Source of the DNA: Lachnospiraceae bacterium
GTDB lineage: Bacteria; Bacillota; Clostridia; Lachnospirales; Lachnospiraceae
Direction of reading: 5' to 3'
Assembly (NCBI GenBank): GCA_014799405.1
Contig: JAAVIA010000032.1
Coordinates: forward strand, 30,437 to 69,539
Length of the DNA: 39,103 nucleotides
Shown: in pieces, positions 8,421 to 31,958 of the stretch
Position numbering within the stretch: the stretch's first letter is position 1
How the letters are laid out: every line of letters begins with the position of its first letter
Program-made: the position numbers and the translations under genes
The notes under the pieces: generated by a model
Databases searched by the model: none
What the model was told of the DNA's origin: nothing
Seen by the model: the letters and a program-made list of their open reading frames with translations, nothing else

Positions 8421-9689
8421 ATGACAGAAAAAAACAACAAAAAAAAACCTGAGCTTCTCATACCGGCAGGAAGCCTTGAGGTACTGAAATGTGCAGTGAA
8501 CTATGGGGCGGATGCCGTATACATCGGCGGACAAAAATTTGGACTTCGTGCAAAGGCAGACAATTTTACCCTTCAGGAGATGAAGGAAGGGGCAGCTTAT
8601 GCACATGCGAAAGGGGCAAAGCTTTATGTGACGGTAAATATCTTTGCGCATAATGATGATATCGAAGGGGTAAGGGAATATTTCGGTGAAATAAAAAATG
8701 CGGGACTTCACCGTGACATAGATGGGTTCATAATATCAGACCCAGGCATATTTACGCTTTCTAAGGAACTGCTTCCTGAGGTGGACGTGCATGTAAGCAC
8801 ACAGTCAAACAATACGAATTACATGACCTATAATTTTTGGTACAAGCTTGGCGCCACAAGAGTAGTTGCTGCAAGAGAGCTCTCCCTTTCAGAGATAAAA
8901 AAAATAAAGGAAAAAATACCTGAGGATATGGAAATAGAGGCATTTATCCACGGGGCAATGTGCATATCCTACTCAGGCAGATGTCTTTTAAGCAGCTATT
9001 TTACGGGACGGGATGCAAACAAGGGAGCCTGTACCCATCCCTGCAGGTGGAAGTATTCCATTGTGGAGGAAAAACGCCCCGGTGAATATCTTCCTATAGA
9101 GGAGGATGACAGAGGAACGTACATATTCAATTCAAAGGATTTATGTATGATAGAGCATATACCTGAGATGATGGATGCGGGTATTGATTCCTTTAAAATT
9201 GAGGGACGTATGAAAACGGCTCTTTACATTGCCGCAGTGACAAGAACCTACAGGCAGGCAATAGACGACTATATGGAATCAGACAAGCTGTATGAAAGTC
9301 ATATGGAGTATTACAGGAGGGAAATTGCCGCCTGCACCATGAGACATTTTACAACGGGCTTTTACTTTGGAAAAACGGACGAAAAATCACAGATTTACGA
9401 TAATAACACATATATAAAAAACTATACCTATATTGGAATGGTTGAGGATATAACTGATGAAGGACTTGTATGCCTTCATCAGAAAAATAAATTTGAAGTG
9501 GGCGACGATATTGAAATAATGGCATTTTCGGGGAAAAATATTATGGCAAGGGTAGAGGCAATATATGATGAGAGGCTAAATCCCATGCCATCGGCTCCGC
9601 ATCCGAAGCAACAGCTTTTTATAAAGCTTGATGATATAACGGGTGTAAAAAACGGTATGGTTATCCGTTTAAAGCATTGCGAAGCTTAA
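8421..9689 (+). CDS. U32 family peptidase / tRNA hydroxylation protein TrhP-like
   Basis: ELLIPAGSLEVLKCAVNYGADAVYIGGQKFGLRAKADNFT, EAFIHGAMCISYSGRCLLSSYFTGRDANKGACTHPCRWKY and DSFKIEGRMKT are hallmark U32 motifs. Confidence 0.95.
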   Translation: MTEKNNKKKPELLIPAGSLEVLKCAVNYGADAVYIGGQKFGLRAKADNFTLQEMKEGAAYAHAKGAKLYVTVNIFAHNDDIEGVREYFGEIKNAGLHRDIDGFIISDPGIFTLSKELLPEVDVHVSTQSNNTNYMTYNFWYKLGATRVVAARELSLSEIKKIKEKIPEDMEIEAFIHGAMCISYSGRCLLSSYFTGRDANKGACTHPCRWKYSIVEEKRPGEYLPIEEDDRGTYIFNSKDLCMIEHIPEMMDAGIDSFKIEGRMKTALYIAAVTRTYRQAIDDYMESDKLYESHMEYYRREIAACTMRHFTTGFYFGKTDEKSQIYDNNTYIKNYTYIGMVEDITDEGLVCLHQKNKFEVGDDIEIMAFSGKNIMARVEAIYDERLNPMPSAPHPKQQLFIKLDDITGVKNGMVIRLKHCEA

Positions 9690-10296
9690 ATAATGCCTTT
9701 TTTTCAATCCGTGAGACATAGGAGCGTGATATTCCGAGTATCGCTGCTATGTCCCGCTGCGGCATGGGATGATTGCCATAAAGTCCATACCGCATGGATA
9801 TAACCTGCTGTTCGCGCTCATCAAGCACGCGCTTAAAAATTACTGCAATGTGTCTTATGCTGTCATTTGTTATAATACCTGTCAGCACACTCTCATCATC
9901 ACTTTTTATTATATCCATAAGGCTTATTTCATTGCCCTCTTTATCCGTACCTATAGGCTCATAAAGAGATACCTCCCTTGACTCCTTTCGCTCCTGCCTG
10001 AGACGCATCAAAAGTTCGTTTTCGATGCATCTTGAAGCGTAGGTTACAAGACGGCTTCCCTTGCTTTCATCATATGTGTTCACAGCCTTGATAAGCCCGA
10101 TTGTACCTATGGAAAGTAAATCCTCAACGCTTCTGTATGGCGTCTGATATTTTTTTACTATGTGGGCGACAAGACGCAGATTGTATTCCACAAGCGTATT
10201 TCTTGCGTTAAGGTCACCCTGGCGACTAAGAGCCAGATAATGTGCTTCCTCAGAAGGTGATAGGGGGCGCTTGAAAGTCTGCAATGGTAACCTCAT
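9661..10296 (-). CDS. sigK: RNA polymerase sigma factor, SigK-like (sporulation)
   Basis: PLSPSEEAHYLALSRQGDLNARNTLVEYNLRLVAHIVKKYQ...DLLSIGTIGLIKAVNTY...DKEGNEISLMDI...GISRSYVSRIEKKAL; strong resemblance to Bacillus SigK; RBS AAAAGGATAT before the start. Confidence 0.88.
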   Translation of the reverse strand: MRLPLQTFKRPLSPSEEAHYLALSRQGDLNARNTLVEYNLRLVAHIVKKYQTPYRSVEDLLSIGTIGLIKAVNTYDESKGSRLVTYASRCIENELLMRLRQERKESREVSLYEPIGTDKEGNEISLMDIIKSDDESVLTGIITNDSIRHIAVIFKRVLDEREQQVISMRYGLYGNHPMPQRDIAAILGISRSYVSRIEKKALFKLRNALNG

Positions 10297-10378
10297 ATAT
10301 CCTTTTCTCTATATATAATATGAAAAAAAGAAAAAAAAGTGCTTTTCCAAAACTTCATTTAATAAAAAGGAGAAACCC

Positions 10379-11722
10379 ATGGAAGAAAATCTGAAAAAAT
10401 TTTTGAAAAAACACTATGTACCATATATTATATATGGTCTTATGTTTGGGGCATTTATTTTGGTGGGATACGAGATGTTTGGCGATGATATTAATGTCAG
10501 AGAAAAATTAATGCCAAGTCTTTTTGGAGAACTTGAAAATCTGTCACGGTCATATGCCGGTTGGAGCTCCCGCATTTTTATAAATCCGCCCATCTGGATA
10601 ATTATGCATTTCCCAATATGGGTATGGGGGAGTATTACAACCGTACTTGCGGTATATATATTTTGGGGGATTGACAGGCTGCTTTTTAAAAATGAGGATA
10701 TGAAAGCTACATATGTTATGTTGATGCTGTTTGCTTTGTTTCCTATGGAAATTTTATGTGATGTTGGCTGGGTGGTGACAACCATGACCTACATATGGCC
10801 TTCTGCGGCAGCGGTTTGTTCTTTTTTTTCAATAAGGCAGTTTATTGATGGGAAAAAGATAAAATGGTATCACGCACTTTTCCTATGTCTGTGTACTATA
10901 TATGCCGCAAATAAAGAAGAACTTTCCGTTATGTTACTCTTAATATTTGGAACATTTTTTATTCTTTCGGCAAAAGAGAATAAACTGAATATAACAATAT
11001 TGTTTCAAACAGTAATATCTATGGGAAATCTTTTGTTCCATATGTTCTCAGGGGGGAATGCCGAGCGATATGAGAAGATTAACAATTATAATGATACATT
11101 TTATGATAAGTTGGAAATTGGTCTGACACAAGCGCCGCTTCGGCTGTTTTTAAAATATGATTATATGTGTCTTGCTTTTTCGGTAATACTTATGCTTATT
11201 ATTTTTATAAGGTATAAGAATGTCCTTGTAAGAGCTGTATCGGTAATACCTGTTGCAACATGGATTTTTGGAGCTGTTGGAGCTTTTATTTTATCGGGCG
11301 GCAACATAGACGCAGCAGCATATGACACACCGTTTTTTTGTTATGGACTATCCGTATCAAGAGGAAAATATACACATCCTATGGCATGGGTTATGCTTTT
11401 GTGTTCCATAATTGTTATGCTTGCATTAGTCTATACTGCCATGAAATGTGCTCCGAATAAAAAAACAGCGCTATTTACGTTTTTGCTACTAGCCGCTGCA
11501 TACGGTGGAAGGGCAACAACAGGATTTGCTAACTCAGGGTGGGGACTATATGCAAGAACATATATATTTATGTATTATGTGTTTGTAATGCTTATGGCCG
11601 CTTATATACAAGCCGTTATGAAAGAGATGCCGGATAAAAAAACAAAAATAATAATGTGCTGTCTTGCTATATTTGCTTTTGTGGGAGCTTTTAAAAATAT
11701 TGTAACACTTGGCATTATTTAA
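10379..11722 (+). CDS. DUF6056-like multipass membrane protein
   Basis: Multiple TM helices, VTTMTYIWPSAAAVCSF and FANSGWGLYARTYIFM patterns; RBS AAAAGGAG. Confidence 0.65.
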   Translation: MEENLKKFLKKHYVPYIIYGLMFGAFILVGYEMFGDDINVREKLMPSLFGELENLSRSYAGWSSRIFINPPIWIIMHFPIWVWGSITTVLAVYIFWGIDRLLFKNEDMKATYVMLMLFALFPMEILCDVGWVVTTMTYIWPSAAAVCSFFSIRQFIDGKKIKWYHALFLCLCTIYAANKEELSVMLLLIFGTFFILSAKENKLNITILFQTVISMGNLLFHMFSGGNAERYEKINNYNDTFYDKLEIGLTQAPLRLFLKYDYMCLAFSVILMLIIFIRYKNVLVRAVSVIPVATWIFGAVGAFILSGGNIDAAAYDTPFFCYGLSVSRGKYTHPMAWVMLLCSIIVMLALVYTAMKCAPNKKTALFTFLLLAAAYGGRATTGFANSGWGLYARTYIFMYYVFVMLMAAYIQAVMKEMPDKKTKIIMCCLAIFAFVGAFKNIVTLGII

Positions 11723-11735
11723 AATAAAAAATTTC

Positions 11736-11764
11736 TTCACATATATTTTGTTATGTGGTATAAT
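11736..11764 (+). promoter_or_regulatory. Putative sigma-A promoter for the pil operon (TTCACA-17-TATAAT, extended -10)
   Basis: TTCACA at 11736-11741, 17-nt spacer, TGGTATAAT with TATAAT at 11759-11764, ~40 nt upstream of pilB. Confidence 0.7.
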
Positions 11765-11805
11765 TTTATACAGCTAATTATACTAAAAAATGAGAGGGAA
11801 TTGCG

Positions 11806-13527
11806 ATGCGAATAAGTAGTGGAAGAAAGAAAATCCGTGTAGGTGATTTGCTTGTGGAAGCCGGTGCCATTACCGAGGACGAGCTTATGGAAGCACTTGC
11901 CTACCAAAAGGAAAACGGGGGCAGAATCGGTAATGTAATTCTTGAACTGGGCTTAATAAGTCAGGAGCTTCTTGTTACCGTTCTTACAACACAGATGGGT
12001 ATTGACTACATTGAGCTTAAAGCATGTAAGCTGGATGAAGATATACTCAAGCTTGTACCAGAAAACCTTGTCAATAAGTACAAGGCTTTGCCGATAGGAT
12101 TCGATGAGATGAATCCTAACATATTAAGGGTAGCAATGGTAGATCCGATGGATCTTAATGCTATTGATGATATTGGCATAGCAACAAACACTCAGGTTGA
12201 ACCTCTGCTTGCTATGGAGGACGACATGAATGAAGCCATTGGCAAATATTACGGTAATGCACAGGCTATGGAGGCTGCTGAGATGTACCGTAAGGAACGT
12301 GAGGCTGATGGTATAGGTGAGGCTGAGGAGGAAGCTCTTAATGAGGATATAGAAAATTCACCTATCGTTCTTCTTGTTAAGCAGATTATAGAGGGCGGTG
12401 TAAGACAGAGAGCATCTGATATACATATTGAGCCTCTTGAGATGAGTGTCCGTGTAAGGTACAGAATAGACGGTGCCTTAAAGCAGGTTATGACATATGA
12501 CTACAGCCTTCTTTCCGCTATAAGCGCCCGTATTAAGATTATAGGCGGCATGGATATAGCGGAGAAAAGAAAACCACAGGACGGACGTATCACCATTATG
12601 GTTGACAGACGTGAATATGATGTCCGTGTTTCCATTCTCCCAACTGTTTACGGCGAGAAGACGGTTATGAGACTTACCTCCAAGGATGGTCTTACAAAGC
12701 CTAAGAGTGCCCTTGGATTTGGACCGGAAGAGCTTAAGGTATTTGACGGTATTTTAAGTAATCCTCACGGAATTATACTTGTAACGGGACCTACAGGTTC
12801 GGGTAAATCAACAACACTTTACACCTCACTAAGTGAGCTTAACACGGAGGATGTTAATATTATCACTGTTGAGGACCCTGTGGAGGCAAATATCGACGGT
12901 ATCAATCAGGTTCAGGTAAACGTTAAGGCGGATATGACATTTGCTGCGGCACTTCGTTCCATACTCCGTCAGGACCCTGACATTATAATGATAGGAGAGA
13001 TTCGAGACGGTGAAACTGCCAGTATAGCTGTTCAGGCGGCTATTACGGGTCACTTGGTTGTATCTACACTCCATACAAACTCAGCCGCATCTACGGTTAC
13101 ACGTATTATAGACATGGGTATTGAGCCGTACGTTGCAGGAGACGCTCTTGTGGGTGTTATCGCACAGAGACTCGTAAGAAGACTTTGCAGCTCCTGCAAG
13201 CAGGCAAGACTTGCTGAACCGGAGGAGAAGGCTATACTGGGTGTCAAGGATATGGAGGATGACGTAGTAGTTTACGAGCCGGTTGGCTGTACACTTTGCG
13301 GGGATATGGGTTACTCAGGACGTATCGGTGTATATGAAATGATGCCTGTATCTAAGGAGCTTCAGGCAGTTATCGCCAAGGGGGCGACAGCGGATGTTAT
13401 AGAGAAACAGGCGCTTTCCGAGGGTATGATTACACTTAAGATGGGTGCAGCAAAACATGTACTTGCAGGTATTACATCTCTTGATGAGATGAAGAAGATA
13501 ACTTACGAGACAGGTGATGAATACTAA
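11806..13527 (+). CDS. pilB: Type IV pilus assembly (extension) ATPase PilB/GspE
   Basis: MshEN N-terminal repeats, Walker A GPTGSGKSTTLYTSL, RQDPDIIMIGEIRD, HTNSAASTVTRIIDMG, and CSSC...CTLC zinc motif. Confidence 0.96.
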   Translation: MRISSGRKKIRVGDLLVEAGAITEDELMEALAYQKENGGRIGNVILELGLISQELLVTVLTTQMGIDYIELKACKLDEDILKLVPENLVNKYKALPIGFDEMNPNILRVAMVDPMDLNAIDDIGIATNTQVEPLLAMEDDMNEAIGKYYGNAQAMEAAEMYRKEREADGIGEAEEEALNEDIENSPIVLLVKQIIEGGVRQRASDIHIEPLEMSVRVRYRIDGALKQVMTYDYSLLSAISARIKIIGGMDIAEKRKPQDGRITIMVDRREYDVRVSILPTVYGEKTVMRLTSKDGLTKPKSALGFGPEELKVFDGILSNPHGIILVTGPTGSGKSTTLYTSLSELNTEDVNIITVEDPVEANIDGINQVQVNVKADMTFAAALRSILRQDPDIIMIGEIRDGETASIAVQAAITGHLVVSTLHTNSAASTVTRIIDMGIEPYVAGDALVGVIAQRLVRRLCSSCKQARLAEPEEKAILGVKDMEDDVVVYEPVGCTLCGDMGYSGRIGVYEMMPVSKELQAVIAKGATADVIEKQALSEGMITLKMGAAKHVLAGITSLDEMKKITYETGDEY

Positions 13528-13580: not shown

Positions 13581-14633
13581 ATGTTAGACATGAAGGAGTT
13601 ACTTGCATTTGCCGTGGAGCAGAATGCATCAGACGTACATATTGCTTGTGGTATACCTCCGAAGCTTCGTATAAATGGTAAGCTTACTGAGGTTGAGGTA
13701 CCGCCTCTTACGCCGTCGGACGTAGCAGAAGCTATTGGTTCTACCATGCATGAGAGACATAAGGCAATCTTAAAGGAAAGAGGAGAGGTTGACTTTTCAT
13801 ATGCTTCCGCAGAGACCGGACGTTTCCGTGTAAATGTGTTTATGGACAGAGGAAATATGGCGGCTGCATACAGAAAGGTAGATACTCAGATACCAAGACC
13901 TGATATGCTTGGCATACCGGATTCAGTTGTACAGCTTTACAAGAAAAAGAGAGGGCTTGTTCTTGTAACGGGACCTACAGGCTCAGGTAAATCAACGACA
14001 CTTGCCTCTATCATAAATAAGGCAAACGAAAACCTTACGGATCATATAATAACACTAGAAGACCCTATAGAGTATGTACACAAACACAAAAAGTCAGTTG
14101 TAAATCAGAGAGAGATAGGCATGGACACACTTTCTTATGCCAATGCCTTAAGAGCTGCACTCCGTGAGGACCCTGACATAATACTTGTAGGAGAGATGAG
14201 AGACTTAGAGACTATATCTACTGCCATAACAGCAGCAGAGACAGGTCACTTGGTTTTCTCCACACTCCATACGATAGGTGCAGCGTCAACTATAGACCGT
14301 ATTGTTGACGTATTCCCACCTCACCAGCAGCAGCAGACACGTATACAGCTTTCCATGGTTCTTGAGGGAGTTATATCCCAGTCACTTATACCTACTGCTG
14401 ATGGAAACGGACGAGTGGCAGCATTCGAGGTTATGCTTGCAAGTTCCGCTATACGAAGCCTTATAAGAGATGCAAAAACTCATCAGATACAGTCTTCAAT
14501 ACAGACCAGCAGGGCACAGGGCATGGTTACAATGGATGACTTTATCATGGAACTTTACCGAAATGGTTCCATAACAAGAGATAATGCACTTATATATGCT
14601 CAGGATCAGGCTGCCATGAAGAAGCAAATGTAG
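13581..14633 (+). CDS. pilT: Type IV pilus retraction ATPase PilT
   Basis: GPTGSGKSTTLASII, REDPDIILVGEMRDLETISTAITAAETGHLVFSTLHT, and AIRSLIRDAKTHQIQSSIQTSRAQGMVTMD (PilT AIRNLIRE-type motif). Confidence 0.96.
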   Translation: MLDMKELLAFAVEQNASDVHIACGIPPKLRINGKLTEVEVPPLTPSDVAEAIGSTMHERHKAILKERGEVDFSYASAETGRFRVNVFMDRGNMAAAYRKVDTQIPRPDMLGIPDSVVQLYKKKRGLVLVTGPTGSGKSTTLASIINKANENLTDHIITLEDPIEYVHKHKKSVVNQREIGMDTLSYANALRAALREDPDIILVGEMRDLETISTAITAAETGHLVFSTLHTIGAASTIDRIVDVFPPHQQQQTRIQLSMVLEGVISQSLIPTADGNGRVAAFEVMLASSAIRSLIRDAKTHQIQSSIQTSRAQGMVTMDDFIMELYRNGSITRDNALIYAQDQAAMKKQM

Positions 14634-14814: not shown

Positions 14815-16017
14815 ATGGCACAATATAATTACAAGGTTATGGACAAAAGCGGTAAAGCCAAGAAGGGTACCGTTGAGGCCGTAAACGAAGACAAAGCAAA
14901 AGAAAAGCTTAAATCCGAGGGCTATATAGTCCAGGAGATTAAGGAACAGGGAACCGGCAAGAAGGGCAAGGGCAAGAAAGTAAAGGATCAGGATTTGGCG
15001 GTTTTCTGTAAACAGTTCGGTGCCGTGCTTAATGCTGGTGTTACCATGATTTCAGCTCTTGAGATGATGGGAGACCAGATTGAGAACAAGGCACTGCAAA
15101 GAGCAGTCAAAGAAGCACAGGCATATGTTCAAAAGGGAGGAACTCTTGCGGACGCATTCAGACTTAACCCTAAGGTTTTTCCGCCTATATTTGTAAACAT
15201 GGTTGCGGCAGGCGAGATTTCAGGTAGCTTAGAGACCTCCTTTGACAGACTTACTACTCATTTTGAGAATGCCAACAAGTTAAAATCCAAGGTTAAAGGT
15301 GCCATGACATATCCTATAGTTATACTTATAGTTGTCATTGCCGTAGTAGTAGTTCTTCTTGTAGGAGTTGTACCTACATTTGCAGATATGTTTGAGGATT
15401 TGGGTTCGGAGCTTCCGAAGCCTACACAGATGCTCGTTAATTTCAGTAGTTTCCTACAGCATCATGGAATTGTACTTGCACTTATTATTGCAGCTGTTGT
15501 ATTTGGACTTGTACAGTTCGGCAAGACACCTTCCGGTGCACAGCTTTACTCAAGCATAGCCATTAAGGCACCACTGTTTGGTGATCTTACGGTCAAGTCG
15601 GCAGCAGCAACCTTTGCAAGAACCTTAAGTACACTTATGGGTTCCGGTGTCCCTCTTATGGATGCCATAGAACAGGTTGCCAGGATGCAGAACAACAAGA
15701 TAATCAGAGAGGGTCTTTTGGATGCCAAGACACAGGTGGCCAAGGGTGTACCTCTTTCAAAACCTATAAGGGATATGGAAATTTTCCCTCCTATGCTTTC
15801 TCAGATGACTAAGATAGGAGAGGAGACAGGTAACATTGAGGATATGATGGATAAGGTTGCAGACTACTACGAGATGGAAGTAAACAATGCAACTGATGCC
15901 CTTACAGCTATGATGGAGCCACTTATCATAGTAGTTATGGGTGTTACCGTTGGTGGTATAGTGCTTGCCATATATTCACCTATGCTCGGTATGTACGACG
16001 CTATCGACAATTACTAA
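14815..16017 (+). CDS. pilC: Type IV pilus inner-membrane platform protein PilC/GspF
   Basis: DLAVFCKQFGAVLNAGVTMISALEMM, FARTLSTLMGSGVPLMDAIEQVA, and GEETGNIEDMMDKVADYYEMEV typical of GspF/PilC. Confidence 0.96.
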   Translation: MAQYNYKVMDKSGKAKKGTVEAVNEDKAKEKLKSEGYIVQEIKEQGTGKKGKGKKVKDQDLAVFCKQFGAVLNAGVTMISALEMMGDQIENKALQRAVKEAQAYVQKGGTLADAFRLNPKVFPPIFVNMVAAGEISGSLETSFDRLTTHFENANKLKSKVKGAMTYPIVILIVVIAVVVVLLVGVVPTFADMFEDLGSELPKPTQMLVNFSSFLQHHGIVLALIIAAVVFGLVQFGKTPSGAQLYSSIAIKAPLFGDLTVKSAAATFARTLSTLMGSGVPLMDAIEQVARMQNNKIIREGLLDAKTQVAKGVPLSKPIRDMEIFPPMLSQMTKIGEETGNIEDMMDKVADYYEMEVNNATDALTAMMEPLIIVVMGVTVGGIVLAIYSPMLGMYDAIDNY

Positions 16018-16098
16018 AATATATCCAGGTTGGATATACATCGCTGGGCGAGGACAGCGGTTTTATATCATAAAAAAAAGAAAAGGAGAGATTTATTT

Positions 16099-16635
16099 AT
16101 GAAAAAAACAAACAACAAAGGTTTCTCATTGGTTGAGCTTATCATCGTTATAGCTATCATGGCTATCCTTGCAGGAGCTATTGCACCAGCACTTATCAGA
16201 TATATTGATAAGTCAAGAAAGTCAAATGACGTTTCAGCAGCTAAGACTATTAAGACTGCTGTTGAGACAGCTATGGCAAACGAGGTAACTTATGAGTTAC
16301 TTACAAGTGGAACTGCAGACTCTGATGGCAACACAGGTATTATTGAAGTAAATCCTGGTCAGTCACAGGCATCTGGTGTAACGATTACTTATCCGAGTAC
16401 AATGCCAAATGGTATTACAGCAGCTGACAAAACTGCTGCTGAGACAGAGATAGCAAAGAACATCGGAGAGAATATGCCTAAGATTAAGTACAAGAAGGCT
16501 GCTGATGGAACAAATGTACCTACAGCTTGGGTTGCTACATGTACAAGTGGTGGAAGCATCAAGGTTGGTCTTAAGACTGCTAGCTCTACTATGGGTTATG
16601 AGCTTGTTCCAGAGATTTGCTCATACTACCAGTAA
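16099..16635 (+). CDS. pilA: Major type IV pilin (prepilin, PilA-like)
   Basis: Leader and N-methylation motif MKKTNNKG|FSLVELIIVIAIMAILAGAIAPALIRYIDKS with Glu5; two C-terminal-half Cys; RBS AAAAGGAGAG. Confidence 0.93.
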   Translation: MKKTNNKGFSLVELIIVIAIMAILAGAIAPALIRYIDKSRKSNDVSAAKTIKTAVETAMANEVTYELLTSGTADSDGNTGIIEVNPGQSQASGVTITYPSTMPNGITAADKTAAETEIAKNIGENMPKIKYKKAADGTNVPTAWVATCTSGGSIKVGLKTASSTMGYELVPEICSYYQ

Positions 16636-16685: not shown

Positions 16686-16719
16686 AGCTGTATTTAAAAA
16701 TGTGAGACAGGGGCATATC

Positions 16720-17481
16720 ATGGGAGAACTGATACTTTTTTCTATTATATTTTTCATATATGGTATTGTTATCGGGAGCTTCCTGAATGTTGTTATAATA
16801 CGCACTCCTTTGAAGGAGAGTCTGGCGAAAAAAAGGTCTCACTGTATGGAATGCGGACATACACTTGCTTGGTATGACTTATTTCCACTTTTTAGTTATT
16901 TATTTTTAGGTGGAAAGTGCAGGTACTGTAAAGTACATATATCATGTCAGTATCCCATAGTCGAAGGACTGAACGGATTACTGTATGCCGGGATTTACCT
17001 CGCACATGGTCTTAGCGTAGATACGATACTTTACTGCCTGTGTACTTCTGCCTTGATAGCGCTGAGCTTTATTGACTGGCGCACGAAGGAAATTCCTTTG
17101 GGATTCAACATATTTATTTTTCTTTTAGGTCTGATTAGACTCGTTACCGATTTGGGTAACTGGAGTCAGTATGTAATCGGTTTATTTGCGGTCAGCGGTT
17201 TTTTACTATTGCTTCTGCTTTTTTCAAAAGGAAGAGCTATGGGCGGTGGTGACATAAAGCTTATGGCGGCAACCGGCTTACTACTTGGCTGGAAGCTTAA
17301 TATTATAGCATTTTTGTTGGGGTGTGTCGTGGGTTCCATTATACATCTCACATTGATGGCTGTTAAAAAGGCTGACAGAGTGTTGGCTTTTGGTCCATAT
17401 TTATCTATGGGCGTATATATAGCAATGATATGGGGTGAGCAGCTTGTAAGCTGGTACCTGAGTATGTGGACTATTATGTAA
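16720..17481 (+). CDS. pilD: Prepilin peptidase (A24 family)
   Basis: GSFLNVVIIRTPL, CMECGHTLAWYDLFPLFSYLFLGGKCRYC, DWRTKEIPLG, and GGGDIKLMAATGLLLGWK. Confidence 0.95.
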   Translation: MGELILFSIIFFIYGIVIGSFLNVVIIRTPLKESLAKKRSHCMECGHTLAWYDLFPLFSYLFLGGKCRYCKVHISCQYPIVEGLNGLLYAGIYLAHGLSVDTILYCLCTSALIALSFIDWRTKEIPLGFNIFIFLLGLIRLVTDLGNWSQYVIGLFAVSGFLLLLLLFSKGRAMGGGDIKLMAATGLLLGWKLNIIAFLLGCVVGSIIHLTLMAVKKADRVLAFGPYLSMGVYIAMIWGEQLVSWYLSMWTIM

Positions 17482-17527: not shown

Positions 17528-19168
17528 ATGGCGAAAACGAATAAAGTGCTATCTATCGATATCACAAATGAAAGTATCACTATTATTGAGTTAACTGTTT
17601 CTCAGAAAAAACAGACAAACATTCACAATGTACTTATTTTTGAAACACCTGAGGATGCTTACGAGGATGGCACCATAAAGGATGCCGACAGAATGGCAGC
17701 GGCTATCAGGGAACAGCTTTCTAGCAGAGGTATTACCAACAAAAATGCAATATTTGTTCTTTCCTCTGCAAAGATTGTAAACAGAGAGGTTGTAGTACCT
17801 TTCGTAAAACCGAATAAAATCAGAGGAATCATAAATGCAAACTCGTCAGAGTATTTCCCTGTAAATATAGAGGATTATGTGGTTTCTCATTCTGTCCTTG
17901 AGACAGTAGTGGACGCAGAAAACAATAAGCAGATAAGAGTTCTTGCTGTTGCGGCACCTACGCAGATGGTCCGATCCTACTATGAGCTTGCGGGTCTTGC
18001 AGGATTAAACGTAGTGAGCGTTGACTACATAGGTAATGCAATGCTTCAGCTTATTAAGACACAGACAAGTGAAAATGCGACAACCATGGTAATCCAGTTA
18101 GGAAGTGAATCAACCGTACTTAATATAGTACAGGGTGACAATCTGCTTCTTCAAAGAACGGTACCATATGGTACAAATTCAGTAGTAAACGTAATTATGG
18201 ATGAAAAGGGTGTGGATGCTACCACAGCTATGACACTTCTTCAAAACGACAGACTTATAACGGTTGATTTTGATGATAATGAGGAAACGGGTGCATTCAG
18301 ATACCTTATTAACAATATCGGGCGTGTTATGGATTATTACGCAAGTAAGAATCCGGATAAACCGATTGATGATGTTTTCCTTACGGGTGATGGAGCCCTC
18401 ATAAAGGGTATAGACGGACTTTTCAAGATACAGTTAAATGTAAATACACGCATTATGGATAGTCTTTACAATATCAAGTTTGACCCAAGCATTGACCTTA
18501 AGGTTTATAATCCGGTATATCTCGTAACCTCCATAGGAGCTGCATTTGCACCTATGGGCTTTGATGTGATTGACCCGACCGCAAAGGTAAAGGGTGGTTC
18601 AGGTGTAAGCCTTGCACCTTTTGTTGCACTTACTGTTATAGCGGCAATTGCAGGAGCAGGTCTTGCTTTCTACTCAATCAAGCAGAAAAATGATGCTGAG
18701 GCGGAGCGGGATAATCTTAACGCTAAGATTGACGCCATATCGGATATAGAACGGATTATTCAGGAACACGACCAGGCTAAGGCTGAATATATGGATGTTG
18801 TAGCTATGTACAATGCTACGTACCAGTTAAATGAAAATGTAAGAATGTTTATAAGTGAACTTGAGGCAAAGATACCTACGACAGTAGTTGTAACAGGCTT
18901 TACATCTACCAATGATGGTGTAAATATTCCGTGTGTATCTGCTGACTATGATTCGATTGCTGACTTTATTATGCAGCTTAAGAAGATAGAGTGTATTGAT
19001 GATGCATATGTGGCATCTATTTCTAAACGAATTGATGAATCAACGGGACAGGAGTCATACGAGTTTACTGTTACGGCGATATATGTAAATACAAACCCGA
19101 AGGCTCTTTTAGCAGTTGATGAAGAAGCAGCGGCAGAAGAGACTTCCACGGAAGAAACAGCAGAGTAG
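17528..19168 (+). CDS. pilM: PilM-PilN fusion protein (PilMN)
   Basis: N-terminal actin-like PilM region (VLSIDITNESITIIELT...), then TM GVSLAPFVALTVIAAIAGAGLAFYSI followed by a PilN-like coiled coil and periplasmic-type domain. Confidence 0.88.
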   Translation: MAKTNKVLSIDITNESITIIELTVSQKKQTNIHNVLIFETPEDAYEDGTIKDADRMAAAIREQLSSRGITNKNAIFVLSSAKIVNREVVVPFVKPNKIRGIINANSSEYFPVNIEDYVVSHSVLETVVDAENNKQIRVLAVAAPTQMVRSYYELAGLAGLNVVSVDYIGNAMLQLIKTQTSENATTMVIQLGSESTVLNIVQGDNLLLQRTVPYGTNSVVNVIMDEKGVDATTAMTLLQNDRLITVDFDDNEETGAFRYLINNIGRVMDYYASKNPDKPIDDVFLTGDGALIKGIDGLFKIQLNVNTRIMDSLYNIKFDPSIDLKVYNPVYLVTSIGAAFAPMGFDVIDPTAKVKGGSGVSLAPFVALTVIAAIAGAGLAFYSIKQKNDAEAERDNLNAKIDAISDIERIIQEHDQAKAEYMDVVAMYNATYQLNENVRMFISELEAKIPTTVVVTGFTSTNDGVNIPCVSADYDSIADFIMQLKKIECIDDAYVASISKRIDESTGQESYEFTVTAIYVNTNPKALLAVDEEAAAEETSTEETAE

Positions 19169-19186: not shown

Positions 19187-20296
19187 ATGTCAAAAGCAAA
19201 TATAAGTATATTATTAGTATTACTCTCCGTAGTTATAGTTGGTGGAGTTTACCTTTATGTGTATAAGCCTAATATGGAGGATAAGGATGTAATACAGGCT
19301 GAGATAAATACACTTCAGGCAAGATATAACGATCTTAGCGCCAAGGCACAGAAAAAGGAACAGTATATTGCAGATACAGAAATGTATAGGGCAGAGTTTG
19401 AGGATGAGGTAGCATACTTCCCTGCAACGCTTGATCAGGAGATAAGTGTTATGTTCGTAAAGGGCTTAATTAAGGATGAAGGTGTAAAGCAGTTTGATGT
19501 AAACAATGTGGGCTTGGGAAGACCTAGTATGTTTTATGTGCTTGGTTCAGGAGCAACACAGAGTGGTGCTGATGTTGCAGTGACCGATGATTCCTATCTT
19601 TGTTACACAGCAGCATTTCCTATTTCATATGCAGGTTCATACGAAGGCATAAAGGATTTGCTTGATTATATTATGGCATACAAGTACAGGATGAATGTTT
19701 CAGCTGTTACAATGTCATATAATTCAGAGACAGACGCATTTACAGGTAGTATAAGCATCAATGCTTACTGTATTACTGGAGGCGACAGAGAAGCTGACAA
19801 GATCAGCGTAAATGTAAATAACGGAGTGGACAATATATTCCATGGAGGAAGCGGTGCAGTTGCTGTTTCATCATTCGAATATGATGCAGATAACGGAGCA
19901 GCAATTGTAAGCAACCATGATGTTAATATTCTTCTTAACAATGCAAACAATGATACCTCAGACGGAATAATTGTTTCAGCAGGCGGATCTGATACATATG
20001 TAACAAGTGGAGCTAACGAGGTTCAGACGTTAGTCATTACCGTTGATAGCGAGGAAGGTAAGAATTTTGTTACATATGCCATAGGAGATAAATCATATAA
20101 GAAGGAGATTGTATCCTCAGACCTTAAGATATATGTAGAGTCCTCTAAGAGGGTTGACGGTAACGACAATAACGGAGTAAAGGTTACTGTTGATAACAAG
20201 ACCAGTCTTCCTGTATTCTTTAAGGTTGTTGATGATGATACAACATCTCCAAGATTTAGTGTTGGAAGCAAGAGTGGTACCGTAAAGGTATATTAA
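19187..20296 (+). CDS. pilO: PilO-like type IV pilus assembly protein with C-terminal extension
   Basis: N-terminal TM plus coiled coil (MSKANISILLVLLSVVIVGGVYLYVYKPNMEDKDVIQAEINTLQARYNDLSAKAQKK) directly after pilMN; PilO-type fold inferred. Confidence 0.75.
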   Translation: MSKANISILLVLLSVVIVGGVYLYVYKPNMEDKDVIQAEINTLQARYNDLSAKAQKKEQYIADTEMYRAEFEDEVAYFPATLDQEISVMFVKGLIKDEGVKQFDVNNVGLGRPSMFYVLGSGATQSGADVAVTDDSYLCYTAAFPISYAGSYEGIKDLLDYIMAYKYRMNVSAVTMSYNSETDAFTGSISINAYCITGGDREADKISVNVNNGVDNIFHGGSGAVAVSSFEYDADNGAAIVSNHDVNILLNNANNDTSDGIIVSAGGSDTYVTSGANEVQTLVITVDSEEGKNFVTYAIGDKSYKKEIVSSDLKIYVESSKRVDGNDNNGVKVTVDNKTSLPVFFKVVDDDTTSPRFSVGSKSGTVKVY

Positions 20297-26456: not shown

Positions 26457-26475
26457 GAAGGAGGTAAAAAGCATA

Positions 26476-29400
26476 ATGAAACGTAAAACGAAAATGATGA
26501 TTTCAGCTTTATCAGCAATGCTTGTGATGGTTTTGGCAGTAACTATCGTATCCTTCTCACTTGCTGGTAATAATGATGAGTCTGAAGTAAATGAACCGGC
26601 TCTCATGGCTGATGCTTCCGATAATGCAAAAATGACTATGGTAGACAGAATTATTGAGAATTCGAATCTTGATGAGGATGAGAATCCGGATGCAGACCCT
26701 GTTTATCATATAGTGGAGGTTGGCTCCTCGGATTCACCTAAGATGGTTACGTTACCGGATGGATCAGAAGGTTCATATCTTGCGTATCTTGCATATATGG
26801 ATGCAAATGGCGAAAGCCCTTTCAAAAATTATGTGATTGATGGCAATAAGAGTGCAACTTTTGACCAGCTTATGGCAGCGGGAAAGGTAGACTATACGTA
26901 TTATAGTGTAAGAAATATCACAGCAGACGATATTGAAAAAATAGCGGATGCAGATCTTATATACGTAAGTAATGACCCAAGTGATGTGTTTGAAGCAGGA
27001 GATAACGATTTAAGCGAGGATTTATATAGTGCACTTCTTCATACATACGTAAATAATAAGAAGCGCCCTATGATTATTGATAATCCGACAGAGACTTCTT
27101 CTGGTTCACCGTCATCAAGCAATGTGACTATGGGAAAATTGGTAAAAGATGTATTTGATGCAAAAGGAAGCAGATATTATACATTTGCGTGGGATACGTC
27201 AAAGAATGCAACAAGTGCAGAAGGAGCTGAAAATTTCCTTTCTCATAAAAATGGTTCACTGTATCTGGGTATTAACGGAGATAATAAGGCGGCTAATTGG
27301 ATACCTGTGACAATTGGTGATGCAACTTCGGGAGATGCTTCATCTACGTACAACATGGCAAAGGTGTTGATTATATCTTCACAATCGTCAACCGACTATA
27401 CGGATAATCCAATGGCAAATGCTTTGTTTACAGACCTTGGCAGTAGAGAAACCGCAACGGGTATGGACGGCACGCAGTATGGTGGTGTGTATAGGCTTTA
27501 TGCAGATAATATTGACAGAGATCCTATGTCGTTGTTCTATAGTAAGGCATATAACGCAAGGTATTCAAGCAAACCAGACCTTGTAAAGGTGGAGGAAGCT
27601 ACATTATCAGCTATCGATGGTAATTTAGATGTTTTGGACTTTGATGCGTACGACATGGTTATTATTGAGGCTGGTTTGGGAAATACCACGATTTCTCCAG
27701 AACTGTACAGAAAGTTTAGTGCAGCGATGCTTGCAAATGTTACCATAGTATATGATTCAAGTAATACAGGTGCAGGCAGCACAGATACTGGAAATGATAA
27801 CTTTGACGCTACAGCTTCAAAGTTTAATATGCTTTTCTCAACAGTTGCATCTACTTCAGGTGTTTCAAAGAAGACGAATGTAATGGTAACAAATACAGAG
27901 GACTTTGGAGTAATCGCACAAAGTAACAGTGCAGCAACCTGTAAGAAGATTGCAGATCTTTTAAATGCATCTTCGTTCCGAGTATATGGTGGTGCGAATG
28001 CTTCTTCCAACAAGTTTACTGTTTTGGAGTTGCAACCGTGTTATCCGATAGATGTGGAACTTGCAGAAAGCAATACGGTAACACATCCAAATGCTGGAAA
28101 CTTAACAAAGCTTGGTATTAAAGGAAATTACTATACGGTACCGGCAGAGGTGTTAAATGCCACGAAGGAACAGGTTTCAACGCTTAATGCAGATGGAACA
28201 ATAACAACACCGGAATATTATGCATGGGAGCTTTCAGAGGCTAAGATAGCGGATGCTTTGGGCATGGATGTAAACGATGTTCAGGTTGTTCATATGTCAT
28301 CAGAGGAGATGGCTGCAAGCACAACAGATATTTTGGGAACTTACGATTTGATATATATTGGCGGAAATAGAAGTGCACTTAAGGAAGCTACTCAATGGCA
28401 GGCACTTGGTGGTATATCCGGCAATGGAATTAATTCGGCACATTTAATTACTGCCATGCAAAATGGCAACATAAGGTATCTGCCTATATATACCATGTAT
28501 ACCCACAATGGTGATATGACTGCAGTAGATGTAAGTAGTACAGGTGAGTCCGGTTCTGCTGTGGGAAATGGTACTGCATATGCAAATGTAAATGGGCAGA
28601 GTTCATTTACAACGCTTAATGGTAATGATATAACATATAAGCAGAGACAGAAGCTTATTGATTATATAGAAGCAGGAATGCCAGTTATTGTTAGTGATGA
28701 TGCAGCAGCCGGATATCAGGCAATTGTAGATGCAGAAGAACATGATAACAATCCATATCTGCAGAATTCTATTGACCCTGATTGTAACATGGCAAAGGTT
28801 TTAAAAGCATGTTATGACAAGAAGAATGACACGAAGAATGGTTACACTGTGCTTTGGGATTTTGATAAGGACGGAGTTTGTCATACGGACAATGCAGGTG
28901 GAGCTCTTGGAACTACAAATGTAGGCTATGTTGAGGTTTTTGCTTCAATGGATGGTTCATCAGTAAACATAGATGATGGTACAACAGCAATAGGTCAAAA
29001 AGAAAGCATTGCAGATGTTTATAGTATGTCAAATAAGCGACCGACCCTTGAGGTAACAAAGACACCTAAGAGATACGATGATACAAAGTCGGATTCGGCA
29101 TTAGATATTATAGATGATAAGTCAGTTTTGGAATTCGAATATACAGTTTCAGGAACTACAAATTTTTCTGTCACACTTTGGATTGATGATGATGGTAACG
29201 GAAGATTTGGGGATGCGACTGATTTATCTTATTCGGGTTCAAGTACAAGCTGTAGTGCTGAGCTTTCAGACAGTTTTTATGGTCCTGTTTCTTGGAAGCT
29301 TGAGGCGAAGGATAATGTGACAGGTGTTACTTCAGGTATAACCGGACTTTCATATGTGGCTCCAAAGTCTGTGGAAGATAAGCAGAATGTAAGGGTGCTT

Positions 29401-31908
29401 CAGATTATGCCGGGAAAAGCAAACCAATGGTCATCAGCTCCGGCAGGTGAAGGTGCTCAGGGTGCTAACTCCCTGTACTTCTGTGTTGTTTGTCAGCAGG
29501 CATGCGAAAGACTTGAAACGAATCCTTTGGCGAATAATGCAGGATGGTTCCCATTGCATTATTCGGGAAATTACTTCGCTAACCAGTATGGAACAAACGT
29601 TGAAATTCAGTTGCCTTGGCCATATTCGCCTGTAACGATAAATGATGTGGGAACTCATGAGCATGTATTTGGTATCCCATATTATGATGCTAACTTGCAA
29701 TTTAGTAATAACGGTAGTATTAAGTATGGTGCTGATGATTGGCATATAAATCTTGCAGATGATCTTTCAGACAGATTTGATTTTGATATTGATATTCTTA
29801 CAAGAGATGAAGTTGAAGAAATATCAGATCAGGTCAGAGAAGTATATGACTTCTCCAATATGAGTGATGCTGAAAAGCGTGCTGCAATTGCGAAGTTTGA
29901 GGAAACTGTTGATTTAGCTACAAAGGAATTTGAAGATTATGCGGAATATGGGGAAGATGATTTGGATGAGAAGCTTACCTATATCACGCAATACAACAGT
30001 GAAACGTATGCTTCCGAGTATTGGAATCTTTATACCTATATGAGAGATGAGAAGTCAGTTCCAGATAATGTAGAAGATGCTGCTGCAGGTGGTTCCGGTA
30101 GTACAGGAGAGCAAAATATGACCTTTACTGACCCGGTAACAGGTGCAACCATTGAGATAACACAGACAACCTTAGATGCCAAGACAGACCTTAACGAAGT
30201 ACTTGAGAAGCTTGTTACAAGTCTTGGTGCAAGAGGAAAGACTGACCTTATGGAAGAGGTAGAATATATCATAAGAACAGAACGGTATTATGATTTGTTT
30301 AATGCATCAGATGCAAGTACTTTTGCATTTAGGTATACTGGTTTCCAGACATATTTGTCCGCAGAGGATATTAGCAAGCTGTGTACTGCATATAAGGATT
30401 ATGTAAAGGCAAAAAATGTTGAGCTTGAGTACAAAGAGTTATACAAAATGTATGACAGACAGGCACATGCCAATAATTGGATTGAGGGATGTTATTCAAC
30501 GGTTATTTTGGGACCTTCGGATGATTTTGCAGGTGATGATTTCACAGCAGGAAGCAATGGTCTTAGGGATTTAACCAATTATGTAAAGAATGGTGGAAAT
30601 GTTCTTTTGTTCCATGATACATTTACAAGATTTAGTGATGCGGGTTCATATAACCTTACAAATGCAATAAGAGCATATGTAGGTCAGGACAAAAACCATA
30701 TGGAGATTGAAGATGCAAGCTACCAGTACATTAAGTATAAGACTGCTGAAAACTATGATGATGATAAGTACTTTTTGACAAATCTTTCATACAAGTCTGG
30801 TGATGACAGATATCCTACATGGTATGCTGATTTGAGACCATACCAATATGGAAATTCAGGTGCAGGAAGTAACAGATTATATTCAACGGTTGCTTATACA
30901 GATGGATTGCATGGCTCAAACAACTCATCCAACCCTTCGGCGATTGCATATAAGTATGCATATCTGAGCTGGTCATATGCGGCATATTGGTATAACTCTG
31001 CAAGCTTTGATGCCAGAGAGAATACAAAGTATGGTACAAACAGAGGTTCTAAGAATAATGATGGACTTATAACACTGTATCCGTTTACACTTAGTGATGA
31101 TATCTATATAGCAGGTACGCATCCACAGTCATATGCACTTGACCTTGAGGATGATCAGTGTACGGTATGGTACTCACTTGCAGGTGGTTACAATGGTCAG
31201 GAGGGCTCATCCATGTTTGCAGCATCTCCTAGGGACGGTGGAGATAACTACTTTATATATTCATATAAGAATGTATATTACTGTGGTGCAGGACATTCCA
31301 ACGTTACTGGTGTAGGTAAGATGAACAATGATGAGAGAAAACTCTACATCAACATCATATGTAATTCTGTAAGAAAGAGTGCGGTTATGCCAAGTATCTA
31401 TGTATATGATTATGATAAGGATACATACGGTGATAAGATTAAGCGTGAGGATGGAAGCTACTATACTAAGGTAGATGATACGGATTCATATCCGGAGTTC
31501 AGCTTTAAGGCTACAACTGATTCTGACTCAACGCTTGCAAGAATCAGAATTTACTATGACCTTGATTATTCAGATACTAACAGAAGTAATGCATACGTTT
31601 CAGATGCTAACCATATTCTTATTGCTGATTGGGATGCAAAGAATGTAACAGCTGGAGTAAGAAAGAACGTATACAGATATGATCCTACACTTATGACATT
31701 AGTTGATGCAAATGGTAATCCAATCGTTGACTCGAATGCTGATGGCACAAGTAATGTTGCATCTAGGCTGAAGCTTCGACCAGAGTACTTCGACCCATAT
31801 AATGGTGAGTACACATATATTGTAATTGAGGCTACAGATTCAAATGGTAACAAGGTTTACCAGAGAATTAAGATTAAGATTAAAGATGTACTCTTTAACT
31901 TGACGTAA
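26476..31908 (+). CDS. Giant exported protein of the pilus locus (1810 aa; possibly DUF5057-containing)
   Basis: Signal peptide-like MKRKTKMMISALSAMLVMVLAVTIVSFSLAGNN; strong RBS AAGGAGG; last gene before a terminator. The DUF assignment is tentative. Confidence 0.8.
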   Translation: MKRKTKMMISALSAMLVMVLAVTIVSFSLAGNNDESEVNEPALMADASDNAKMTMVDRIIENSNLDEDENPDADPVYHIVEVGSSDSPKMVTLPDGSEGSYLAYLAYMDANGESPFKNYVIDGNKSATFDQLMAAGKVDYTYYSVRNITADDIEKIADADLIYVSNDPSDVFEAGDNDLSEDLYSALLHTYVNNKKRPMIIDNPTETSSGSPSSSNVTMGKLVKDVFDAKGSRYYTFAWDTSKNATSAEGAENFLSHKNGSLYLGINGDNKAANWIPVTIGDATSGDASSTYNMAKVLIISSQSSTDYTDNPMANALFTDLGSRETATGMDGTQYGGVYRLYADNIDRDPMSLFYSKAYNARYSSKPDLVKVEEATLSAIDGNLDVLDFDAYDMVIIEAGLGNTTISPELYRKFSAAMLANVTIVYDSSNTGAGSTDTGNDNFDATASKFNMLFSTVASTSGVSKKTNVMVTNTEDFGVIAQSNSAATCKKIADLLNASSFRVYGGANASSNKFTVLELQPCYPIDVELAESNTVTHPNAGNLTKLGIKGNYYTVPAEVLNATKEQVSTLNADGTITTPEYYAWELSEAKIADALGMDVNDVQVVHMSSEEMAASTTDILGTYDLIYIGGNRSALKEATQWQALGGISGNGINSAHLITAMQNGNIRYLPIYTMYTHNGDMTAVDVSSTGESGSAVGNGTAYANVNGQSSFTTLNGNDITYKQRQKLIDYIEAGMPVIVSDDAAAGYQAIVDAEEHDNNPYLQNSIDPDCNMAKVLKACYDKKNDTKNGYTVLWDFDKDGVCHTDNAGGALGTTNVGYVEVFASMDGSSVNIDDGTTAIGQKESIADVYSMSNKRPTLEVTKTPKRYDDTKSDSALDIIDDKSVLEFEYTVSGTTNFSVTLWIDDDGNGRFGDATDLSYSGSSTSCSAELSDSFYGPVSWKLEAKDNVTGVTSGITGLSYVAPKSVEDKQNVRVLQIMPGKANQWSSAPAGEGAQGANSLYFCVVCQQACERLETNPLANNAGWFPLHYSGNYFANQYGTNVEIQLPWPYSPVTINDVGTHEHVFGIPYYDANLQFSNNGSIKYGADDWHINLADDLSDRFDFDIDILTRDEVEEISDQVREVYDFSNMSDAEKRAAIAKFEETVDLATKEFEDYAEYGEDDLDEKLTYITQYNSETYASEYWNLYTYMRDEKSVPDNVEDAAAGGSGSTGEQNMTFTDPVTGATIEITQTTLDAKTDLNEVLEKLVTSLGARGKTDLMEEVEYIIRTERYYDLFNASDASTFAFRYTGFQTYLSAEDISKLCTAYKDYVKAKNVELEYKELYKMYDRQAHANNWIEGCYSTVILGPSDDFAGDDFTAGSNGLRDLTNYVKNGGNVLLFHDTFTRFSDAGSYNLTNAIRAYVGQDKNHMEIEDASYQYIKYKTAENYDDDKYFLTNLSYKSGDDRYPTWYADLRPYQYGNSGAGSNRLYSTVAYTDGLHGSNNSSNPSAIAYKYAYLSWSYAAYWYNSASFDARENTKYGTNRGSKNNDGLITLYPFTLSDDIYIAGTHPQSYALDLEDDQCTVWYSLAGGYNGQEGSSMFAASPRDGGDNYFIYSYKNVYYCGAGHSNVTGVGKMNNDERKLYINIICNSVRKSAVMPSIYVYDYDKDTYGDKIKREDGSYYTKVDDTDSYPEFSFKATTDSDSTLARIRIYYDLDYSDTNRSNAYVSDANHILIADWDAKNVTAGVRKNVYRYDPTLMTLVDANGNPIVDSNADGTSNVASRLKLRPEYFDPYNGEYTYIVIEATDSNGNKVYQRIKIKIKDVLFNLT

Positions 31909-31925
31909 AAAGAACAAACTATAAA

Positions 31926-31958
31926 AGTAAGACGGGTTATACCCGTCTTATTTTTTCT
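31926..31958 (+). terminator. Rho-independent terminator of the pil locus
   Basis: AAGTAAGACGGGTTATACCCGTCTTATTTTTT: stem AAGACGGGT/ACCCGTCTT followed by a T-tract. Confidence 0.9.

Follow-up and report, generated by a model that had tools for sequence, protein, structure and literature searches.

The closest described systems are the PilC/PilY1 proteins (PF05567, T4P_PilY1) of P. aeruginosa, M. xanthus, and Neisseria. PilY1 and four minor pilins make up the priming complex, tip, and cork of the pilus (PMC7541494). The protein has a variable N-terminal part and a conserved C-terminal part (PMC7541494, PMC4471445), and its modular N termini parallel the modular pilins (PMC8179133). In M. xanthus, PilY1 caps a full minor-pilin set whose PilX-like pilin lacks Glu5 (PMC7541494). 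According to reviews, Gram-positive type IV pili lack PilC/PilY1 (PMC4471445, PMC6916266). In S. sanguinis, the only monoderm studied in depth, three minor pilins replace the four, and two of them are modular and do the adhesive job (PMC10191384).

We analyzed a stretch of 39,103 nucleotides from a Lachnospiraceae genome (the window), in which four minor-pilin genes are followed by a gene for a large exported protein. Like PilC/PilY1, this protein is a large non-pilin with a Sec signal peptide, is encoded with four FimU-PilV-PilW-PilX-like minor pilins, of which the GspK/PilX-like one lacks Glu5, and shares the layout of variable N-terminal modules and a conserved C-terminal part. Unlike PilC/PilY1, it has neither a PF05567 match nor a beta-propeller but tandem Rossmann-like and Ig-like domains, it ends in a fixed LFxL[DNT] peptide, and its host is a monoderm, where PilC/PilY1 is reported absent. 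With the modular minor pilins of S. sanguinis (PilB with a vWA module, PilC with a lectin-like module), it shares the probable role of displaying a large adhesive module on a monoderm pilus. Unlike them, it is no pilin and has no class III signal peptide, and the minor pilins are separate genes. A complete four-pilin set in a monoderm, with a large exported non-pilin in the place of PilY1, favors a non-homologous counterpart. Thus, we consider it rather probable that the large protein caps a type IVa pilus as its non-pilin tip component and is the functional, non-homologous counterpart of PilC/PilY1. The sequence-only reading had made this proposal, and the co-occurrence and fold outcomes given below support it.

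The large gene and its pilus operon

The large gene is the last of an operon ordered pilB-T-C-A-D-MN-O-V-K-H-J (Table 1). Its ATG-started frame lies on the same strand as the GspJ/PilW-like pilin gene, with a gap of 19 nt after the stop of the latter. A chance ORF is excluded by the 1810-codon open frame and by its conservation in orthologues. The closest relative locus, 85% identical, comes from an uncultured Lachnospiraceae bacterium (L094). We take the names pilB-like, pilC-type, and pilD from family knowledge. The major pilin-like prepilin likely starts at an internal ATG before KKTNNKGFSLVEL.

Table 1. Features of the pilus cluster and of the large protein, in window coordinates.
Feature	Position	Strand	Basis
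pilB-like extension ATPase, 573 aa; opens the pilus cluster	11806..13527	+	ORF, Walker-type ATP-binding sequence
pilT retraction ATPase	13581..14633	+	TIGR01420, 475 bits over cut-off at window 13590-14609 (contig 44026-45045)
pilC-type platform protein (presumed)	14815..16017	+	ORF; orthologues in relatives
Major pilin-like prepilin (pilA)	16030..16635	+	N_methyl, TIGR02532
pilD prepilin peptidase (presumed)	16702..17481	+	ORF; orthologues
PilM-PilN fusion	17528..19168	+	PF11104 99.5 bits, PF05137 32.5 bits
PilO-like protein	19187..20296	+	Layout and conserved position after PilMN; without Pfam match
Minor pilin GspI/PilV-like, 537 aa	20303..21916	+	N_methyl 34 bits; gspI model E 1.9e-4
Minor pilin GspK/PilX-like, 1001 aa	21917..24922	+	Prepilin-like N terminus NNQG/SSVVM (slash, cleavage point); conserved position
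Minor pilin GspH/FimU-like, 188 aa	24925..25491	+	N_methyl; gspH model E 2.6e-6
Minor pilin GspJ/PilW-like, 315 aa	25509..26456	+	N_methyl; gspJ and ComGF models
Ribosome-binding site (AAGGAGG) for the large gene	26458..26464	+	Sequence; 11 nt before ATG
Proposed tip protein, DUF5057-family exported protein, 1810 aa	26476..31908	+	ORF, Pfam, relatives' loci
Sec signal peptide, aa 1-30, probably cleaved after SFSLA	26476..26565	+	Simple rule
Rossmann-like domain D1, aa 70-300	26683..27375	+	Model A
Rossmann-like domain D2, aa 292-512	27349..28011	+	Model A; least conserved part of N-terminal half (occupancy profile)
Rossmann-like domain D3, aa 512-852	28009..29031	+	Model A
DUF5057 match, first part (profile 1-265)	28624..29424	+	Pfam
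Ig-like beta-sandwich, aa 850-968	29023..29379	+	Model B strands; Ig-like folds among the top-ranked PDB matches of half B
Acidic loop D904-x-D-x-N-G, possible Ca2+ site	29185..29220	+	D904 in 52/53 members
Insertion with CxxC (C1003, C1006) and HxH (H1061, H1063), possible metal site	29443..29700	+	Almost unchanged across 32 relatives
Helical insertion, aa about 1095-1335	29758..30480	+	Model B helices; across the wider family, occupancy of most positions 0.06-0.5
DUF5057 match, second part (profile 309-378)	30385..30618	+	Pfam
Remainder of Rossmann-like domain D4	30463..31401	+	Conservation, hhalign; includes aa 1530-1640
C-terminal beta-rich domain, aa 1643-1803	31402..31884	+	Model B strands
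Conserved C-terminal peptide DVLFNLT-COOH, proposed docking tail	31885..31905	+	Tail motif comparison
Intrinsic terminator, end of operon	31923..31955	+	15-bp hairpin, then T-rich tail

The sequence-only reading had described the 1810-aa frame exactly as it is present, preceded by four minor pilins, with a signal peptide and no C-terminal LPxTG. All of this held up. Three of the minor pilins carry N_methyl (PF07963), and the GspK/PilX-like one has a prepilin-like start that, as in PilX proteins, lacks Glu5; Pfam and NCBIfam profile searches matched no model to the latter. Known PilX proteins are far shorter than 1001 aa, and this pilin may be a second large tip component. The genome has a fifth prepilin-like gene outside the cluster (G000:C39:88101-88172, open frame of 213 aa).

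Judging signal peptides by a simple rule rather than by SignalP, we find an N-terminal hydrophobic core in 84 of 85 family members and an A-x-A-like cleavage site in 74 of the 85; the window protein has both. None of the 85 shows LPxTG in the last 60 residues, the C-terminal signal of sortase-anchored surface adhesins. Export without LPxTG makes retention by the pilus plausible. The large protein has no N_methyl match, the mark of a class III signal peptide, and the N_methyl matches of the genome fall elsewhere.

Pfam assigns the large protein to DUF5057 (PF16480) at 49.4 bits against a gathering cut-off of 27.9. The match is split between aa 717-983 and about 1304-1382 by an insertion of ∼320 aa, and it covers only about 265 plus 70 of the 1810 residues. 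Pfam gives the family no function, NCBIfam has no matching model, and our literature search retrieved no paper using the name DUF5057. The protein had been called uncharacterized; this stands for its function in the literature searched, but not for its family, which Pfam names. No PilY1 Pfam domain was detected in it at E ≤ 1, and PF05567 was not found across 200 genomes in a search run without a positive control. It matched no enzyme family, and a sequence search of the PDB gave nothing significant. We judged matches of the GH43_C, TseB, and Huntingtin types to be due to chance.

Co-occurrence of the DUF5057 family with pilus genes

DUF5057 is carried by 55 of 250 genomes of the same family. 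For 48 of the 62 matches in these genomes, PilM and/or PilT was found upstream at no more than 45 kb along the contig, typically at 8.6-12 kb and 12-16 kb; the rest are mostly on short contigs or are sub-cut-off fragments. We read 56 neighborhoods, with relatives' genes called as longest ORFs. Six were uninformative owing to a contig end, a fragment, or a marginal partial match (L043, L054, L059, L060, L073, and L093). A prepilin gene lies directly upstream in all 50 informative same-family loci, being one gene away in L038. Scanning named genomes, we find the order PilMN-PilO-like-V-K-H-J-large gene in 32/32 loci, of which at least five are on the same contigs as in the 56-neighborhood set; several of these genomes are near relatives, so the counts are not independent. 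In other Clostridia families, the DUF5057 gene sits at pilus loci in 4/4 cases. A further family of the phylum, with genomes of 5.6-6.8 Mb, has it at pilus loci in 3/3 cases, transcribed divergently from pilB.

Co-occurrence had been suggested as a check, with regular occurrence of homologues away from pilus genes as the outcome speaking against a pilus role. The DUF5057 genes sit in pilus loci in every informative case of the four sets, so the homologues do not regularly occur without pilus genes. The only loci read without such genes, L093 and L137, were dropped as sub-cut-off or marginal partial matches.

Two arrangements depart from one intact gene per operon. Two tandem DUF5057 genes lie within one pilus operon in L075 and at G209:C5:79591-85842. 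In L059 (G018:C44), a family fragment comprising 652 C-terminal residues comes straight after pilT and pilC, owing either to loss of the central operon genes or to misassembly.

Domain anatomy and the C-terminal tail

The protein was modeled in two parts (A, aa 31-853; B, aa 845-1810) with a mean pLDDT of 79; residues 964-966 of model B, its last three, fall below 50. In model A, alpha/beta, Rossmann-like domains follow one another along the N-terminal half, after a hydrophobic helix and a low-confidence linker. Comparing the domains by hhalign, we obtained weak but mutually consistent similarities (D1-D2, P 0.0005; D1-D3, P 0.0017; D3-D4, P 0.0028). An element resembling 'ND-[IL]-[TS] ... L..Y...G.PVII.D', a Rossmann-like pattern, is where both the D1-D3 and the D3-D4 alignment lie. 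From this pattern, the repeats may be of the class I amidotransferase-like kind.

Using Foldseek against the PDB, we find no match at E ≤ 0.001 for either half and no beta-propeller among the fold matches. Half A is matched only by tandem Rossmann proteins, poorly superposed (rmsd about 15-25 Å), and half B by Ig-like sandwiches. The sequence-only reading had noted no obvious PilY1 propeller, and this fold check agrees with it, finding tandem Rossmann-like and Ig-like domains instead. With the propeller tested and absent, the protein is not a member of the PilY1 family.

Across the family, the C-terminal part is conserved, with aa 1530-1640 in D4 as the most conserved block of the protein, while the N-terminal half is the most variable. 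The CxxC/HxH insertion has low occupancy in the wider family and is absent from most members. A strict EF-hand-like loop occurs in 36/85 members, compared with 3% in shuffles, and lies in a fold different from that of PilY1; it is absent from the window protein, for which a strict calcium-loop claim was rejected.

Binding modules are grafted onto longer relatives. The L072 relative carries a List_Bact_rpt module (E 1.5e-25), and the L079 relative carries a ricin-B-like module (E 2e-4). No grafted adhesive domain was recognized in the window protein itself. The L135 locus has a neighboring exported protein of 1234 aa (8868-12569, minus strand) with NPCBM (E 2e-47), SpaA, and SdrD_B domains. Its gene separates those of the minor pilins from that of the DUF5057 protein, and its last residues are KLKSLD, compared with KLPSLD in the adjacent DUF5057 protein; it may be another tip protein that shares this tail.

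The family has a nearly invariant C-terminal peptide. Its consensus is L-F-x-L-[D/N/T]-COOH, and 66/85 members stop exactly one residue past an L-F-x-L-like motif. In two subclades, the motif is internal, within a short C-terminal extension. Among 738 other ORFs of the loci, just 2 have this ending, and one of the two is a fragment of the same family. The proteins range from 802 to 2392 aa, yet the last five residues are kept, which argues that the tail is probably used. The members in the further family of the phylum end in DDRY/GNRY instead. With their transcription divergent from pilB, these ends suggest that tail docking may not be universal. The tail, like the tendency to oversized GspJ-like pilins described below, is new in this analysis.

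Proposed tip role and operons without the large gene

We propose that the large protein would be exported by Sec and probably released by signal peptidase I. Its conserved C-terminal part, ending in the tail peptide, would dock on the tip complex of GspH/I/J/K-like minor pilins. The variable N-terminal Rossmann-like domains, together with any grafted modules, would face outside and bind a surface, probably a fibre, a glycan, or another cell. Once docked, the protein would serve adhesion and probably pilus priming.

The very large size and the presence of one gene per pilus operon would also suit an envelope-resident assembly factor. An N-terminal helix that escapes cleavage would keep such a factor at the membrane, and the factor would guide or gate the pilus through the thick cell wall, as a substitute for the secretin complex; the hydrophobic helix and low-confidence linker of model A are in line with this. 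We consider it unlikely. Most members have an A-x-A-like cleavage site by the simple rule, and S. sanguinis builds pili without such a factor (PMC10191384). Moreover, the N-terminal half is variable and receives binding modules in relatives, as would be expected of a region that contacts a ligand more than of a component of the machine.

The tail could be read in another way, as the sorting signal of a cargo that the pilus machine secretes in a type II secretion-like export. The gene is apparently co-transcribed with a GspH-I-J-K-like set, and its product has a fixed C-terminal peptide and no anchor. However, the operon contains pilT, a gene indicative of pilus retraction and not of a T2SS (PMC9765702). 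The host lacks an outer membrane that would have to be crossed, the protein already carries a Sec signal, and the family tracks the pilus rather than a variable substrate repertoire. We regard secretion as cargo as quite improbable. We hold it equally improbable that the protein acts on or binds glycans at the surface and is merely co-regulated with the pilus without belonging to it, a reading for which the Rossmann-like repeats (possibly amidotransferase-like by sequence pattern), the Ig-like domains, and the largely rumen and gut habitats could speak, because no enzyme family match or sortase motif was found and the operon-final position is kept in all informative Lachnospiraceae loci.

Extending the tip-protein reading to the family, we see an even chance that the DUF5057 proteins form a second class of PilY1-type tip and priming proteins, one that evolved independently and is present in Clostridia and another lineage of the phylum. 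Its members would plug into the minor-pilin complex by the C-terminal peptide and carry exchangeable adhesive modules. If the tip-protein reading is right, many gut and rumen Lachnospiraceae would rely on a special tip protein whose fold is unrelated to that of PilY1, DUF5057 would acquire a function, and tip capping would have evolved twice. The LFxL[DNT] tail would then offer a direct handle on tip docking.

For comparison, we took 19 genomes with a PilM-type gene but without a Pfam DUF5057 match. In four of them (L139, L146, L148, and L152), a divergent DUF5057 member fills the slot; that of L139, with 935 aa, is missed by Pfam. At least 11 same-family pilus operons are without the large gene, which is therefore not essential to all such pili. 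A profile search of these genomes gave no copy elsewhere, although the same search missed the L139 member. The 1699-aa protein near the pilus operon of L155 was rejected as a family member, being an unrelated LPETG protein.

The GspJ-like pilin reaches at least 400 aa in 9 of the 11 other readable operons, which are without the large gene, versus 16/80 where that gene is present (P 1e-4 by Fisher and 0.019 by Mann-Whitney; uncorrected for phylogeny). This contrast fits a trade in which either a tip protein or a modular pilin carries the adhesive load. A GspJ-like minor pilin at L055:8120-10828 (minus strand) has a C-terminal F5/8 type C (galactose-binding-like) domain (E 4.5e-15) and Big_2. 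Very large frames with prepilin-motif starts, unusually large modular pilins, occur in L145 (2475 aa) and L156 (2655 aa), whose operons are without the DUF5057 gene.
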